Shown in pieces: positions 29,520 to 36,126 of a DNA stretch of 38,652 nt. Position numbers and translations under genes: made by a program. Every line of letters starts with the position of its first letter. Position 1 is the stretch's first letter. The notes beneath the pieces were generated by a model that ran no database searches, was not told the origin of the DNA, and saw only the letters and a program-made list of their open reading frames with translations. Source of the DNA: Acidipila sp. (GTDB taxonomy: Bacteria; Acidobacteriota; Terriglobia; Acidiferrales; UBA7541); contig JAAFGT010000035.1 in the NCBI GenBank assembly GCA_010365215.1, positions 1 through 38,652 on the forward strand, written 5' to 3'.

Positions 29520-29815
29520 CAACGGCTGAGGTGGCCTTCGCGAGCAGCGACCGTGGTGTTGCCGCGAGGGTAAGGGAAGGCCGTGAAATTCGGCCACGGT
29601 CCCGCCACTGTGAACGGCCGGTTCTCGCCGCTCCACCGAGCGACCACTGGCTTGCCTCGATAAAGAGGCCGGCCGGGAAGGATCTGATTTGCCGGGCGCA
29701 AGCCGGGCAACACGGAGCGAGAGCCCACGATTTTGAAATCTCTTTTTCCTTTGGGGAATGAGATTTCGGAAGGCCGTAAGTCAGGAAACCTGCCTGAGCC
29801 GCTGTCGCCAGCACT
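29520..29815 (+). ncRNA. Cobalamin riboswitch before btuFCD
   Basis: The conserved cobalamin elements appear in order. First comes TAAGGGAAGGCCGTGAAATT (from 29571), then GTCCCGCCACTGTGAA (about 29599-29614), a long variable arm, and the B12 box AAGTCAGGAAACCTGCC at 29778-29794. The core is followed 48 bases later by an intrinsic terminator and then btuF, so binding of a cobalamin should stop transcription. The exact 5' edge is uncertain by some tens of bases. Confidence 0.93.
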
Positions 29816-29841
29816 CTTCGCGCGAGAGGGTGTGGCTCGAT

Positions 29842-29871
29842 GCCCCATTCTTGCGTGGGGCTTTTTTATTT
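29842..29871 (+). terminator. Riboswitch-controlled intrinsic terminator
   Basis: GCCCCA (29842-29847) pairs perfectly with TGGGGC (29856-29861), followed by TTTTTTATTTT. It lies between the B12 box and btuF, only 10 bases before ATG 29881, so it is the expression platform of the riboswitch. Confidence 0.88.
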
Positions 29872-29880
29872 TGCGGCGGT

Positions 29881-30954
29881 ATGGCCATCAAGAACATAGT
29901 CCGAGCGGTTCGCATATTCGAGGCGCTGGTGATAGCGGCAATACTGCCTATCATCCTGGGCGCGCGGGGTGTGCGGCAGTCACCCTCGACGGTTATCTCC
30001 TCTTCTGGCGCTCCGGCCTTAGTGGCGCAATCCTCTGAGGTGATCGATGAATTCGGCCGCCGCGTTACCATTCCCGCGAACGTTCGCCGCATCGTGTCTC
30101 TCGCGCCGAGCTTGACGGAAACCGTTTACGCGTTGGATGCGCAGGATCGCCTGGTGGGGGTCACCGATTATTGTGACTATCCACCGCAGGCGCAGTCCAA
30201 AACACATATTGGCGGCACCATTAATCCAAACCTGGAGCAGGTCGTATCGCTGCATCCCGATCTGGTGCTGGCCACCCGTCAGGCCAATCGGCTGGAAACC
30301 GTGGAAGCGTTAACCCGGCTGGGCATTCCGGTCTACGCCACAGATCCAAAATCGGTGGATGATGTGATCGAATCGACGCGCCGATTGGGAAGTGTGCTCG
30401 GGACGCGCGAGCGAGGCGAGGCGCTGGCGCTCGAGTTGCGTGCCAGGCTCGACGACATCAAGCATCGTGTGGGCGCGCAACCCCCGCGGCGCGTATTTTT
30501 TGTGGTTTGGCCACAGCCGCTGATCTCCATCGGCCGCAATACTTTTCTCGCCGATGCGCTGCGGCGCGCCGGCGCCCAATCGGTGGTCGAGACGGCGCAA
30601 GACTGGCCGCGGCTGAGCATCGAGGAAGTCATCCGGCAGCAACCCGAGTTTCTGGTCTTTTCGAGCACGCATTTTGAAGAAGCCGCACACACCGTGGAGG
30701 AATTGAGTGGACGTGCGGGATGGCGCTCGCTCGACGCCATCCGCAATCAGCGCATCGCCATCGTCTCGGATGCCATCAATCGGCCGTCCCCGCGCCTGGT
30801 CGACGCTATTCAGGAACTCGCGCGGCAGTTCCATCCCGACGCATTTGCAGAAACACCGCAGACAGAAAAAATGAAATCGAAATTTAACCTGGCACAACAA
30901 TATTCTAGTTCGTCTCCTGTGGCCCAGGCGGAGGCGTCTGCATGCGCCCGCTGA
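29881..30954 (+). CDS. btuF: Cobalamin ABC transporter, substrate-binding protein BtuF-like
   Basis: A 357-residue periplasmic binding protein of the helical-backbone class. Residues 1-30 form a signal or anchor (ALVIAAILPIILGARG). The mature part begins with IDEFGRRVTIPANVRRIVSLAPSLTE, typical of BtuF and iron-siderophore binders, and continues with DLVLATRQ and a long central helix. ATG 29881 is the first start after the terminator hairpin; the open frame upstream to 29758 lies inside the riboswitch and is not coding. The last 13 bases overlap btuC. The riboswitch upstream makes cobalamin or a precursor the likely ligand. Confidence 0.9.
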   Translation: MAIKNIVRAVRIFEALVIAAILPIILGARGVRQSPSTVISSSGAPALVAQSSEVIDEFGRRVTIPANVRRIVSLAPSLTETVYALDAQDRLVGVTDYCDYPPQAQSKTHIGGTINPNLEQVVSLHPDLVLATRQANRLETVEALTRLGIPVYATDPKSVDDVIESTRRLGSVLGTRERGEALALELRARLDDIKHRVGAQPPRRVFFVVWPQPLISIGRNTFLADALRRAGAQSVVETAQDWPRLSIEEVIRQQPEFLVFSSTHFEEAAHTVEELSGRAGWRSLDAIRNQRIAIVSDAINRPSPRLVDAIQELARQFHPDAFAETPQTEKMKSKFNLAQQYSSSSPVAQAEASACAR

Positions 30955-31958
30955 CGCCCATCCGGCTGCTTCTGATCTGCACCATTCTGGCCGGGGTGCT
31001 ACTGGTGGTGGCTCTGGTGTCGATGAAATTCGGCACACGCTCTATCCCGCTGGCGGACCTGACTTCCGTGCTGTACCACACTGCCACCGGTCAGAACGAT
31101 CAGATTTCCAGTGACTATCGTGTGATCCTTTTTGAGATTCGCTGGCCGCGTATTCTGCTGGCCATGATCGTCGGCGCGGCGCTATCCGTGGCCGGTGCGA
31201 GCTTTCAGGCGCTGCTGCGCAATCCGCTGGCCGATCCTTATGTGCTCGGCGTCTCGAGCGGAGCCGCACTGGGCGCCATTCTTGCGCTCATCTGGGCACC
31301 CCACACTCCTGGCGTCACGCCGTTAGCAGCGTTCGCCGGCGCGGCAGTCGCCAGCGCGGCGGTATATTTTCTCGGGCGGCGCGGCGGTTATCTGGACAGC
31401 TTCGCGCTGCTGCTGGGCGGAATCATCACCGCGTCGTTTCTTTCCGCGGTGATCATGTTCCTGATGACGGTGATCCCCGGAAGCGATTTGCGGGGCATGG
31501 CCTTCTGGTTGATGGGTGACCTGCAAACGGCCTCCCCGGTTTCACCGCGTTGGCTGCTGCTTGTGGTGTTGGCGACCATTGGCGCCATCTATACCACGGC
31601 GGCTGACTTGAATCTGCTGATGGCCGGCGAGCAAGAGGCGCTGCATCTGGGTGTGGACGTTACGCGCGTAAAAATTGTGGTGTATCTGGGCGCCTCGATA
31701 CTCACCGGCGTCGCCGTCGCGGTGAGCGGCGCCATCGGATACGTAGGTCTTCTGGTGCCGCATCTCATTCGCATCATTTTCGGATCGGATTATCGGGTGC
31801 TGATTCCCGCCACCGCGCTGGGCGGCGCTATCGCCGTCGTGCTCGCCGATACTCTGGCGCGAACTCTGGTGTCGCCGATCGAGCTTCCCGTCGGCGCCAT
31901 GACGGCGATGGTGGGCGCACCGATGTTCATCTACCTGCTGCGGCGAAGGGTGGAATGA
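30942..31958 (+). CDS. btuC: Cobalamin ABC transporter permease BtuC-like
   Basis: A 338-residue inner-membrane permease of the FecCD/BtuC family, with about ten transmembrane segments. The family motifs are RWPRILLAMIVGAALSVAGA, LADPYVLGVSSGAALGA and the cytoplasmic coupling segment GEQEALHLGV. The end has GFxGL-like AIGYVGLLVPHLIRIIFGSD and the ELPVGAMTAMVGAPMFIYLL tail. The start overlaps btuF by 13 bases, with GGAGG about 10 bases before the ATG, and the end overlaps btuD by four bases, showing tight coupling. Confidence 0.93.
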   Translation: MRPLTPIRLLLICTILAGVLLVVALVSMKFGTRSIPLADLTSVLYHTATGQNDQISSDYRVILFEIRWPRILLAMIVGAALSVAGASFQALLRNPLADPYVLGVSSGAALGAILALIWAPHTPGVTPLAAFAGAAVASAAVYFLGRRGGYLDSFALLLGGIITASFLSAVIMFLMTVIPGSDLRGMAFWLMGDLQTASPVSPRWLLLVVLATIGAIYTTAADLNLLMAGEQEALHLGVDVTRVKIVVYLGASILTGVAVAVSGAIGYVGLLVPHLIRIIFGSDYRVLIPATALGGAIAVVLADTLARTLVSPIELPVGAMTAMVGAPMFIYLLRRRVE

Positions 31959-32824
31959 ATCCCAGCACAGATTCACGGGCCGGGGACGCGCGCTCCGAAG
32001 TTCACGCGCAGCGGTCTCCTGCGCCGGTGCGGCTGAGCGTGGACTTAGCCAGTTATTCGTACCAGCCGGGCGGCGGCGCGGCGCCGCTGTTTACACTCGA
32101 AGCCACCAGCTTCGAAGTGCGCCAGCGCGAGCTCGTGGCCATCCTGGGTCCCAACGGCAGCGGAAAATCCACGCTGCTGAAACTGCTCTCGGGAATGCTG
32201 CAGCCTCTTTCCGGCCGCGTGCAGTTGGAAGGCTTCGAGGTGGCGCGCCTCGACCCGCGCACGCGCGCCCAGCGCATCGCCGTGGTGCAGCAGGAGACGC
32301 CGCTGCTCTTTCCAATTCGCGTTTGGGAATACGTGCAGCAGGGCCGGCATCCCTACACCCGAGGAATGCGCTTTGAATCCGACGAAGACCGGCGCATTGC
32401 CGATCGCGCGCTGGCCGAAGCGGGCGCCGATCATTTGAAAGACCGCTGGATGCACCGCATTTCCGGCGGAGAAAAACAGCGCGCCATCCTGGCACGCGCG
32501 TTGACCCAGCAGCCCATGCTGCTGCTGCTCGACGAGCCCACGCTGCATCTCGACATCGCCGCGCAGGTGGACCTGCTGCGGCGTCTGCGGCGCCTGGCCG
32601 CGCGGAATTCCTATTCCGTGGTGGTGGTAACCCACGAAGTGAATCTGGCCGCGGAATTTGCCGATCGTGTGGTCCTGCTCGATCGCGGCAAGATGCTGCG
32701 CGTGGGCACGCCCGCGGAGGTTTACCAGCAGGATCTGCTGCAGCAGGTTTTCGGCACGCTGCTGCGTGTGGATCACAACGCCGAGGGAACGCCGAAGGTG
32801 GCCTTCTCCGGAAAGGAGGCGTAA
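31955..32824 (+). CDS. btuD: Cobalamin ABC transporter ATPase BtuD-like
   Basis: A 289-residue ATPase. After about 45 less conserved residues come Walker A GPNGSGKST, the Q-loop VVQQET, the signature ISGGEKQRAI, Walker B LLLLDEPTLHLD and the switch histidine VVVTHEVN. These match BtuD/FecE-type importers. The start overlaps btuC by four bases. The second cobalamin riboswitch begins about 80 bases after its stop. Confidence 0.93.
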   Translation: MNPSTDSRAGDARSEVHAQRSPAPVRLSVDLASYSYQPGGGAAPLFTLEATSFEVRQRELVAILGPNGSGKSTLLKLLSGMLQPLSGRVQLEGFEVARLDPRTRAQRIAVVQQETPLLFPIRVWEYVQQGRHPYTRGMRFESDEDRRIADRALAEAGADHLKDRWMHRISGGEKQRAILARALTQQPMLLLLDEPTLHLDIAAQVDLLRRLRRLAARNSYSVVVVTHEVNLAAEFADRVVLLDRGKMLRVGTPAEVYQQDLLQQVFGTLLRVDHNAEGTPKVAFSGKEA

Positions 32825-33165: not shown

Positions 33166-35433
33166 ATGAACCGCTTGCTTCGCTCTGCTGTTGTTTTGAT
33201 TTTCCTGGCCGGCTTCGCTACACGCGATATTCGAGCTCAATCTTCCGCTACTCTGTCCGGTACTCTACTCGATCCTTCCGGTGCAGCCGTTCCTGGTGCG
33301 AAGGTTTCTGTTGCTGCGCTGGGAGCCCCGAATGCCGCCGTGCCGCTTTTACGCACCTCCAGCGATGACCACGGACATTTTTCTTTCACTCTGCCCCCAG
33401 GGCATTATCGTTTGAGCGTTGCTCATGCTTCGTTCATGCGGCGCGAACTGGAAATGACGCTGGCAGAAGGAGAGTCTCGCGAGACCGAGCTGCGACTGCA
33501 ACTGGAGCGCCTCTCCGAAACGGTGGTGGTCACCGCCGAGGCGCAGCCGCTCAACGCGGAATTCTCTCCCGCTCCCGTGGTCATGATCAGCGAAGCGGAA
33601 ATTGTTGAGCGGCAAAGCACCTCGCTCGCCACGCTGCTCTCCAACGTAAACGGGATAAGCATTGCGCGGTCGGGGAGAAACGGCGGGATTACTTCCCTGT
33701 TCGTTGACGGGGGCAATTCGGGTTTTGCCAAAGTGCTCATCGACGGCACGCCGGTGAATGAACCCGGCGGTGCGATTGATCTCTCCAACTTTTCACTTGA
33801 CAATATCGCCAAGATTGAGCTGGTGCGCGGCGCGGAGAGCGCGCTCTACGGATCGGACGCCATGGCCGGCGTGATTCAGCTGTTCACGGCTCGCGGTACG
33901 TCGCGCCAGCCTCGTCTCGACCTGCTTGCCGAAGGCGGCGGCTTTTCCAGCGCGCGCGGCCAGGCAACGCTCAGCGGCGTCGTTCGCCGCTTCGATTACT
34001 CCGCGTCCGCGGGCCGCTTCGATACCGAAGGCCAGGGAGCCAACAACGATTTCCGCAACCTTACCCTGAGCGGGAATTTTGGATGGCATTTCTCGGATAC
34101 CAGCACCGCGCGACTCACCCTCCGCGACAATACCAGCGACGCTGGCGTAGCCGGTCAGACCCTGCTCACTCCTCCCAATCTCGACCAGCATAACGCGCTG
34201 CATAATTTTTCTACCCATGCCAATTGGGAATATCAGGCCGGCCAGCATTGGCGGAATCATCTCTCCGCCAGTGAATCGTACATTGGCCAGAGTTTCTCCA
34301 ACGCCCTGACCGATTTTTTCCCTTCCCCCGACCCGTTCGGCATCTGTGCCGGGCAGCCCCTCTCACCGCGTGCCGTACCGTCACAGTTTTGCGATTTTAC
34401 TTTCGGCGCGCGGAATCAGTACAACCGCGCGGGAATCGAGGAACAGGCCAGCTATCTGTTTCGCGGCGGCGCGCTGACCGCCGGCTACGAATACGAAGTG
34501 GAAAATGGCGCGCTGGGTTTTCAGAACGGCTTGCATCTTCGCCGCAACAACCAGGCGGGCTATCTCGACGCACGCTATCAATTCGGCCGCCGACTGCTGG
34601 TCCATGCCGGAGCGCGCGCGGAAGCCAACGCCAACTTTGGTACGCGCGTCGTGCCGCAGGCCGGATTTTCCTACGCGGCTCGCCTGGGAGGCGATTTTTG
34701 GGGCCCCACGCGGCTGCGATTCTCCTATGGGCAAGGAATTAAGGAGCCGCGGTTCGATCAGAACTTCAGCGCCGATCCCTGCGATCCTGGGAATCCCCGC
34801 CTGCGGCCCGAGCGCAGCCGCACTTTCCACGCGGGGATCGATCAAACGCTGGCCGCGGAACGCCTGCGCGTTTCCGTGGACCTTTTCTTCAACCGCTATT
34901 ACGACATGATCAGCTTCGGACAAGCCGCCGGCCCTTCGCCCGCATGCGCGTTTGGGACTTTCACATTTTTCAACACCGACTTAGCGCGCGCGCGCGGCAT
35001 TAACACGAATATTGAATTCAAACCGGTGCGCTGGCTGCGCATTGCCGCTGGTTATGCGGTGGACGACAGCCGCGTCTTGCTGGCCCTGGGAGCTTTTAAG
35101 GATTCCACTCAGTTCGCGGGGAATCGGCTCATTCGCCGGCCGGTACACTCCGGCAATCTCCTGGTCCATGCCCTTTATCGCAGTTGGAGCGGCACTTTTG
35201 CCGGCTACTTTTCCGGCCAGCGCACGGACAGCGACTTTCTGGGGTTGGGCCTGACGCGCAATCCTGGTTACGCGCGGTTCGACGTAACCACCCGTTATGA
35301 GTTGACCCCGCGCTTAGCTGCGTTTGGCCGCGTGGAAAATCTCTTCAACCGACGCTACCAGGAAATTATCGGCTTCCCAGCTTTGGGCCGTGATTTCCGC
35401 TTGGGGCTGAAGTTCACACTGGGAGGAGAGTAG
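33166..35433 (+). CDS. btuB: TonB-dependent outer-membrane receptor, BtuB-like
   Basis: A 755-residue outer-membrane transporter. A signal peptide (SAVVLIFLAGFATRDIRA) is followed by a carboxypeptidase-regulatory-like/Ig domain (about 28-112, TLSGTLLDPSGAAVPGAKVSV). Next are a TonB-box-like segment ETVVVTAEAQ and the plug (about 130-250) with VLIDGTPVNEPGG and IELVRGAESALYGSDAMAGV. The remaining part is the barrel, ending with DFRLGLKFTLGGE. The N-terminal extra domain is frequent in Acidobacteria and Bacteroidetes. Cobalamin as cargo is inferred from the riboswitch. A strong AGGAGG lies six bases before ATG. The MerB-like gene starts only six bases after its stop. Confidence 0.92.
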   Translation: MNRLLRSAVVLIFLAGFATRDIRAQSSATLSGTLLDPSGAAVPGAKVSVAALGAPNAAVPLLRTSSDDHGHFSFTLPPGHYRLSVAHASFMRRELEMTLAEGESRETELRLQLERLSETVVVTAEAQPLNAEFSPAPVVMISEAEIVERQSTSLATLLSNVNGISIARSGRNGGITSLFVDGGNSGFAKVLIDGTPVNEPGGAIDLSNFSLDNIAKIELVRGAESALYGSDAMAGVIQLFTARGTSRQPRLDLLAEGGGFSSARGQATLSGVVRRFDYSASAGRFDTEGQGANNDFRNLTLSGNFGWHFSDTSTARLTLRDNTSDAGVAGQTLLTPPNLDQHNALHNFSTHANWEYQAGQHWRNHLSASESYIGQSFSNALTDFFPSPDPFGICAGQPLSPRAVPSQFCDFTFGARNQYNRAGIEEQASYLFRGGALTAGYEYEVENGALGFQNGLHLRRNNQAGYLDARYQFGRRLLVHAGARAEANANFGTRVVPQAGFSYAARLGGDFWGPTRLRFSYGQGIKEPRFDQNFSADPCDPGNPRLRPERSRTFHAGIDQTLAAERLRVSVDLFFNRYYDMISFGQAAGPSPACAFGTFTFFNTDLARARGINTNIEFKPVRWLRIAAGYAVDDSRVLLALGAFKDSTQFAGNRLIRRPVHSGNLLVHALYRSWSGTFAGYFSGQRTDSDFLGLGLTRNPGYARFDVTTRYELTPRLAAFGRVENLFNRRYQEIIGFPALGRDFRLGLKFTLGGE

Positions 35434-35439
35434 GCGAGA

Positions 35440-36126
35440 ATGGCGGGTATGCACAAAGCTGATCTTTTCGACCGCAAGGTCCGGTTGCACATCTACCGCC
35501 ACTTCATCCGCACGGGCCGTGCTCCCTCACATGCGGAGACGGCCCGCGCGGTATCCCGGCCGACGCGCGAAGTCCGCGCTGCGTACCGGCGCCTGGCGCG
35601 GCGGCACACCATTGTGCTGCAGGAGGGAACCGATGAAATCCTCCGCGCTGCGCCGTTTTGGGCTTTGCCCACGCGGTTTCATGTGGAAGTCGGGCGCCGG
35701 TTCTATTGGGGGAGTTGCATCTGGGACGCCCTGGGAATCCCCATACTCCTGGGAAAGAACGCACGCATCGTGACGGGATGCGGGTGTTGCGATCGCGCGA
35801 TGGTCTTGGAGGTTCACAACGGCGCAATCAAGAATCCCCATGGCGTGGTGCATATTGCCGTCGCCGCCCGCCACTGGTATGACAACGTTGTTTTCACTTG
35901 AAAAACGATGCTGCTCTTCCGGTCGGAGGAGCACGTCATGCGCTGGTGCCGCCTTTGGCGGCGCAAGCCGGGCGCGGTGATTTCGCTCGAGCAAACGATG
36001 GGATTAGCGCAAGCCTGGTATGCGGATCGGCTTGATGCTGACTGGCGTTCGAAGACCCCAGCCGAAGCTCAGACCGCTTTCGCGTCGCTCGGCCTCCGCT
36101 CCGGCTTCTGGCGCATGCCGTGCTAA
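35440..36126 (+). CDS. MerB-like organomercurial lyase, candidate selenoprotein (in-frame TGA 35899)
   Basis: Read through the TGA, the frame gives 228 residues. Family MerB proteins have an N-terminal helical HTH-like part (here about 10-75) and a catalytic part with C96, D99, C159 in E. coli numbering. Here C93-I-W-D96 matches the CALD motif. A Cys cluster C114, C116, C117 matches the region of C117. The second catalytic Cys is replaced by the TGA at codon 154, in VVFT-TGA-KTMLLFRSEEHV. The codon phase is unbroken and the downstream 74 residues are MerB-like. A SECIS-like hairpin follows. MerB breaks C-Hg bonds using these two Cys and the Asp. Start ATG 35440 lies six bases after btuB, so it probably shares the B12-regulated transcript. 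If the TGA is a stop, the gene is a nonsense pseudogene. Confidence 0.78.
35907..35937 (+). promoter_or_regulatory. Candidate bacterial SECIS hairpin in the merB-like mRNA
   Basis: GCTCTTCC (35913-35920) pairs with GGAGGAGC (35925-35932), with one U-G pair in the middle, around the loop GGTC (35921-35924). Below a CU/A internal bulge, GATG pairs with CGTC. The loop GGU starts 20 bases after the TGA. In E. coli fdhF the GGU loop starts 19 bases after the UGA. The loop identity and distance fit bacterial SECIS rules; no folding energy was computed. Confidence 0.65.

Follow-up and report, generated by a model that had tools for sequence, protein, structure and literature searches.

MerB organomercurial lyases hold the metal of their substrate with two cysteines, and an aspartate gives the proton that releases R-H. 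Their usual partner is MerA, which reduces Hg(II). We take the catalytic residues of MerB to be numbered Cys96, Asp99, and Cys159. Relatives of MerB that contain selenocysteine (Sec) have been catalogued. SaoL, of the Sec-assisted organometallic (SAO) system, is a MerB relative predicted to hold Sec; it has its own NCBIfam model (NF040728), named organometallic lyase, and is tabulated as a selenoprotein with the motif CU in the review PMC13188914. An alkylmercury lyase MerB-like selenoprotein is also tabulated in the review PMC9312934. For UAG-encoded Sec, section 17 of PMC5330540 describes three genomes of Geodermatophilaceae that have a CUA tRNA-Sec and selenoproteins of the FDH, UGSC, and AhpC families; no MerB-like protein is named in that section. 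A term search did not find MerB in the main text of PMC2398784, PMC12013277, or PMC5029168, and our literature search, which did not cover supplements or the primary SAO paper, returned no description of the single-Sec clade, the UAG form, or the double-Sec form reported below. The first-pass annotation of the locus knew of no described Sec-containing MerB. This is corrected for the principle of a Sec-containing MerB-like protein, which is already known because SaoL is catalogued. The protein at this locus is not SaoL by the curated cut-off (35.7 bits against 140). The UAG and double-Sec forms are the least covered by the literature found.

We analyzed a stretch of 38,652 nucleotides from Acidipila sp. 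(hereafter, the window), in which the following features were assigned.

29758-32824, plus strand: overlapping genes for a binding protein (Peripla_BP_2), a FecCD/BtuC-like permease, and an ABC ATPase, from model matches
33166-35433, plus strand: TonB-dependent receptor gene; best NCBIfam model is the vitamin B12 receptor, at 195.6 bits, below the cut-off of 599.7
35440-36126, plus strand: MerB-like selenoprotein gene, 228 residues, predicted Sec at residue 154, TAA stop, from translation, Pfam, and fold
35716-35718, plus strand: Cys93 codon, MerB Cys96 column; Cys in 95/95 Sec forms
35725-35727, plus strand: Asp96 codon, MerB Asp99 column; Asp in 95/95 Sec forms
35899-35901, plus strand: UGA predicted to be read as Sec, MerB Cys159 column, from homologue codons, profile alignment, and a tRNA-Sec with anticodon tca
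35907-35937, plus strand: bacterial SECIS-like hairpin with loop GGUC at 35921-35924, from folding and conservation across Sec forms

The MerB-like gene has only one in-frame TGA, at codon 154, in the context VVFT-TGA-KTMLLF. The frame had been read as continuing in phase on both sides of this codon to give a 228-residue MerB-like protein with C93-x-x-D96 intact. Translation confirmed this reading: the Cys and Asp are present (SCIWD), and the Pfam MerB model (PF03243) matched the protein at 87.2 bits (cut-off 27, E 1.1e-24) over residues 76-194, spanning position 154. In the family profile, Cys93, Asp96, and residue 154 fell on the catalytic Cys, Asp, and second-Cys columns of MerB (3f2g), as had been proposed for the TGA from the sequence, and both Cys93 and residue 154 aligned with Cys in MerB2 (5c17). 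The predicted structure of the protein (mean pLDDT 97.3) had MerB2 and MerB as its best solved matches in Foldseek. Structure comparison gave a Z of 19.1 with MerB2 5c17 (rmsd 3.1, 188 residues) and of 15.8 with MerB 3f2f (rmsd 4.0, 179 residues). The protein resembles MerB and MerB2 (PF03243; PDB 1s6l, 3f0o, 3f2f, 5c17) in the catalytic columns C93, D96, and 154 and in a shared fold that extends from residue 7 to residue 199 and takes in the winged-helix part. It differs from MerB in the predicted Sec at 154 and in having only about 20% identity, and it scored below both NCBIfam MerB models (NF009710, 35.6 against 193 bits; NF033555, 27.6 against 200 bits). The match to the SaoL model covers residues 11-133 of the protein and positions 11-137 of the 159 in the model, and whether the two share the same Sec column is not settled. 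With the same model, one UAG form scored 50.1 bits and three double-Sec forms scored 23.1-36 bits. No SAO model was among the matches listed for the neighboring binding protein and permease, among the best 25 of 192 matches for the ATPase, or, for the TonB gene, among the best 25 of 27.

The source genome (4.12 Mb in 91 contigs, 97.79% complete) was searched for the Sec machinery, whose absence would have refuted the prediction. selA (545 bits), selB (366.5 bits), and selD (365.6 bits) were all found over their cut-offs, as was a tRNA-Sec of 58.8 bits with a UCA anticodon (tca by ARAGORN). A further match to the tRNA-Sec model over the cut-off (L002) was dropped; ARAGORN classified it as tRNA-Ser. 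The selD gene itself (L155) has one in-frame TGA near its start, in the context AKAAGUAAKL, and a second selenoprotein gene is therefore predicted in this genome.

To analyze the codon used at column 154, we searched 151 genomes of relatives, 399 of the class, and 396 of the phylum, and added the best 80 of 201 relatives from one genome-contig scan. That scan found relatives when based on an alignment and none when run with a single protein. Among 123 distinct hits, the codon was TGA in 96, TAG in 3, TGC in 15, TGT in 1, and TGG in 1, and 7 hits did not reach the column. Cys codons do therefore occur at this position (16 hits, against 99 with TGA or TAG), although 6 of the 16 are weak, under 100 bits. 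The share of Sec among the 123 hits is biased upward, because only the best 80 of 201 relatives were taken and the scan patterns were drawn from Sec forms, one of them from beside the Sec site. Among matches above 100 bits, the class scan gave 9 Sec and 9 Cys forms and the phylum scan gave 15 Sec forms, 2 Cys forms, and 1 TGG form, the genomes of the two scans being partly in common. For further analysis we used a single-Sec set of 95 rows, including the window gene (96 TGA plus 3 TAG minus 4 double-TGA rows), and a Cys/Trp set of 11 rows (9 TGC, 1 TGT, and 1 TGG, without the 6 weak TGC rows); a structure alignment took 56 of 101 usable rows. Cys93 and Asp96 were kept in every row of the single-Sec set. 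By record titles and NCBI names, carriers of the Sec form include Acidobacteriota, Chloroflexota, Thermomicrobiota, Actinomycetota, and Gemmatimonadota, and also Planctomycetota, Verrucomicrobiota, Calditrichota, KSB1, and one record titled Deltaproteobacteria. Nocardioides sp. zg-1230 is a cultured carrier of the TGA form.

In a quick tree, which had no bootstrap and had long branches among distant rows, 10 Cys rows formed one clade (SH-aLRT 99) nested in a 19-row group with 9 Sec rows (SH-aLRT 92), and 3 changes of Sec/Cys state were required over all rows. In these 10 rows, the Asp96 column is also Cys, giving C-x-x-C plus C, whereas classical MerB (3f2g) combines Cys with Asp. The expected pairing of Sec with Cys homologues was thus met insofar as Cys occurs at the column, but the nearest Cys clade does not represent a simple swap. 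The Cys-form clade loci are L034-L041, L047, L061, L196, and L197. Two plasmid relatives, judged by eye, also have Cys at the Asp96 column. The single TGG row, L059 (G549), has Ser at the Cys93 column and is for this reason probably a dead paralogue, as judged from sequence; its genome has selA and tRNA-Sec.

Of the 45 Sec-form genomes tested for selA, 43 had a match at E 1e-60, including one that fell below the curated cut-off, and the other two (those of L104 and L130) had no match. By comparison, 12 of 20 genomes without a hit had selA (p 0.0007), a difference confounded by taxonomy; among 12 genomes carrying a TGC, TGT, or TGG form, 10 also had selA. Relatives were found in 12 plasmid records. 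Among the five inspected, the two best were Cys forms and one was a broken Rubrobacter copy. No relative of the single-Sec or double-Sec family was found in viral contigs, and none was found in phage records.

The three TAG rows belong to Geodermatophilus saharensis (cultured as DSM 45423), Blastococcus capsensis, and Blastococcus saxobsidens (cultured as DSM 44509). In these three genomes, the best match to the tRNA-Sec model (65.3-65.8 bits) has the anticodon cta, which ARAGORN labels tRNA-Pyl, and it adjoins selA by coordinates in all three; in five other genomes in the same search, the best match has the anticodon tca. These MerB-like genes share with the UAG-Sec selenoproteins of PMC5330540 the bacterial family, the CUA tRNA-Sec, and TAG at the Sec site. 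Of the evidence gathered, the joint switching of the stop codon and the tRNA-Sec anticodon speaks most strongly for the predicted Sec; genetic evidence of Sec decoding is seldom as clean as a UGA-to-UAG switch of this kind. Because the three genes are closely related on the tree, the switch may represent one event.

A hairpin with loop GGUC had been noticed 3' of the TGA, and both folding and conservation confirmed it. The hairpin at 35907-35937 begins after 5 spacer bases 3' of UGA35899 and has 13 pairs at -19.4 kcal/mol; relative to shuffled sequences its z is -2.96, and 3 of 200 shuffles folded as well. Among the 95 Sec forms, 84 have GGTC as the loop tetramer and 6 have AGTC. Of the 570 cells that these forms contribute for the six inner pairs, 560 hold a standard pair (shuffle mean 537.6, maximum 546 in 2000), compared with 37 of 66 cells for the 11 Cys/Trp forms. 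At pair 15-28, 82 Sec forms have C-G and 8 have G-C, with 2 changes on the tree. The outer hairpin is poorly kept (28/95 at pair 12-31 and 47/95 at pair 6-36). Synonymous codon use followed the hairpin: Arg161 is encoded by CGG in 86 of 88 Sec forms and Ser162 by TCG in 90 of 91, whereas the top codon has a share of only 0.37-0.44 at other conserved Arg columns and 0.39 at the other conserved Ser column (columns with 60 or more such residues). At the Arg161 column, the Cys forms use CGC for 6 of 7 Arg codons. Because synonymous codons are frozen at the hairpin and varied elsewhere in the gene, the pattern points to a constraint acting on RNA rather than on protein. A scan of the whole source genome with Rfam SECIS_1 gave no match; this is uninformative, since 14 controls gave none either. 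cmscan of the gene loci against Rfam also returned no SECIS hit.

Weak hits led to a second MerB-like family in Acidobacteriota, for which eight genes were aligned (L071, L048, L177, L178, L179, L181, L195, and L065, the last without a start). All eight have exactly two in-frame TGA codons within the aligned stretch, at both catalytic Cys columns. The context of the first is U-A-E-D in seven genes and U-G-A-D in L195. In two partial copies, only the second TGA is present. One of them, L183, is located at the end of a contig; in the other, L182, the DNA 5' of the match is unrelated, which indicates either truncation of the copy or a break in the assembly. All ten genes have TTCTTCTGGTCAGAAGAA or a closely similar sequence following the second TGA, with a GGTC loop as in the single-Sec hairpin. 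For the first TGA, the best fold 3' of the codon is not the same in every gene, which makes a SECIS there less certain. The Pfam MerB model was met in all three double-Sec proteins scanned (L071, L177, and L195; 31.2-41.4 bits against 27), and a structural model (pLDDT 88.3) had MerB as its best structural match. In G580 (L201:243-6745), the double-Sec gene stands beside selA, a selD-CMD fusion, and selB; this genome has a second selA elsewhere. selA was found in two of three genomes tested as double-Sec only, and none was found in the third, the fragmented draft G493. G689 has two double-Sec copies besides a single-Sec form (L062). The seven double-Sec flanks examined had no neighbor family in common.

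At the source locus, the TonB receptor gene, itself preceded by transporter genes of the BtuFCD type, ends 6 bases before the start of the MerB-like gene. Unlike MerB, the latter has no mer gene among the neighboring proteins scanned, and no MerA in the source genome was over the cut-off (best 385.2 against 454.45 bits). Of the 45 Sec-form genomes tested, 6 had a MerA over the cut-off, compared with 0 of 35 others (one-sided p 0.027); this enrichment is not used as evidence, because the comparison was chosen after the fact and is confounded by taxonomy. With MerA in 6 of 45 only, the Hg(II) reduction step is not shown for most Sec-form carriers tested. When the ORFs of 80 loci were clustered, no neighbor recurred across the whole MerB-like family. 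The largest cluster comprised ABC-ATPase-like ORFs from 8 loci at mixed distances and strands, and a single Chloroflexota clade had one ORF that recurred, with its strand unchanged, at 7 loci, which we take as synteny of close relatives.

It remains possible in principle that the TGA is a plain stop, leaving a pseudogene or a truncated protein of 153 residues. The ORF mechanically ends there, and decayed copies exist: the gene on Rubrobacter radiotolerans plasmid 1 (L199:2932-3398) has the TGA and then loses its frame, and looks decayed by its sequence, the single-Sec copy of G109 (L023) breaks off, and the C-terminal part of L021 diverges. Stops at random positions in relatives, which would have refuted Sec, were not seen, however; TGA stands at the same column, the exceptions being the broken copies L023 and L199. 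Moreover, the frame and residues 3' of the codon are kept in 95 forms from many phyla, TAG replaces TGA where tRNA-Sec reads UAG, and the codons at the hairpin are frozen, all of which make a plain stop very improbable. Reassignment of TGA in the source genome, for example to Trp, without any Sec, has the TGG of L059 in its favor, but that relative also lacks Cys93 and looks dead. TGA is still an ordinary stop in this genome, where the permease gene ends with ATGA at 31955-31958, and 53 of the 95 Sec-form genes terminate with TGA; with the Sec machinery also present, we regard reassignment as hardly tenable. None of the refuters tested held, and the inference of Sec insertion, which rests on the machinery, the TGA or TAG at one column, and the hairpin, is supported, by sequence alone. 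We are nearly certain of the predicted insertion of Sec at codon 154.

The substrate is unproven; organomercurials are most likely and corrinoids are the best rival. A Sec organometal lyase could act on a substrate other than mercury, such as the upper ligand of cobalamins or organometals imported by the adjoining B12-type uptake system. The binding protein, BtuC/FecCD-like permease, ABC ATPase, and B12-receptor-like TonB genes directly upstream fit this possibility, as do the scarcity of MerA in the Sec-form genomes tested and the name organometallic lyase that NCBIfam gives to SaoL. The order of the ABC genes, TonB gene, merB, and gatB is also kept in G011/L075, which is of another genus in the same family. 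The linkage to transporters is nevertheless limited to these 2 genomes, and since the B12-type order is kept there alone, corrinoids find support in one family of Acidobacteriota only; tblastn of the TonB gene against the loci collected to that point gave no match beyond the source and G011/L075. In addition, none of the B12 models listed for the upstream transporter genes reaches its cut-off, the protein has the fold and catalytic columns of MerB, and MerB is not known to us to act on Co-C bonds. A non-mercury substrate is thus unlikely on present evidence. Cleavage of the Hg-C bond as the natural reaction is inferred and, with activity unproven, we consider it probable.

In the absence of any experiment, we judge it likely that the window gene encodes a MerB-type organometal lyase with Sec as the second metal-binding Cys, cleaving R-Hg+. 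In this enzyme, SelA and SelD would make Sec on the UCA tRNA-Sec, and SelB would bring it to UGA35899, guided by the hairpin. By analogy with MerB, the Sec154 selenolate and the Cys93 thiolate would hold the metal of an R-Hg+ compound, and Asp96 would donate a proton, so that R-H is released and Hg(II) is left on Cys/Sec. Sec is inferred to bind Hg more tightly than Cys.

Taken together, these genes very likely constitute an undescribed selenium-using branch of the MerB superfamily, comprising a Cys-Asp-Sec form over about ten phyla, with UGA or, in Geodermatophilaceae, UAG, and a double-Sec form in Acidobacteriota (Sec-x-x-Asp plus Sec). Discussion of the affinity of selenium for mercury usually concerns toxicity or protection; in the present case, a widespread enzyme family seems to place selenium in the metal-binding position itself. 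The Rubrobacter radiotolerans plasmid copy is annotated as a short merB ending at the recoded TGA site. Because gene prediction can terminate a gene at the recoded codon, as in this copy, itself broken further on, we infer that the family and the potential for organomercurial breakdown may be undercounted. With the double-Sec form, the roles of the individual MerB active-site residues would become directly testable.
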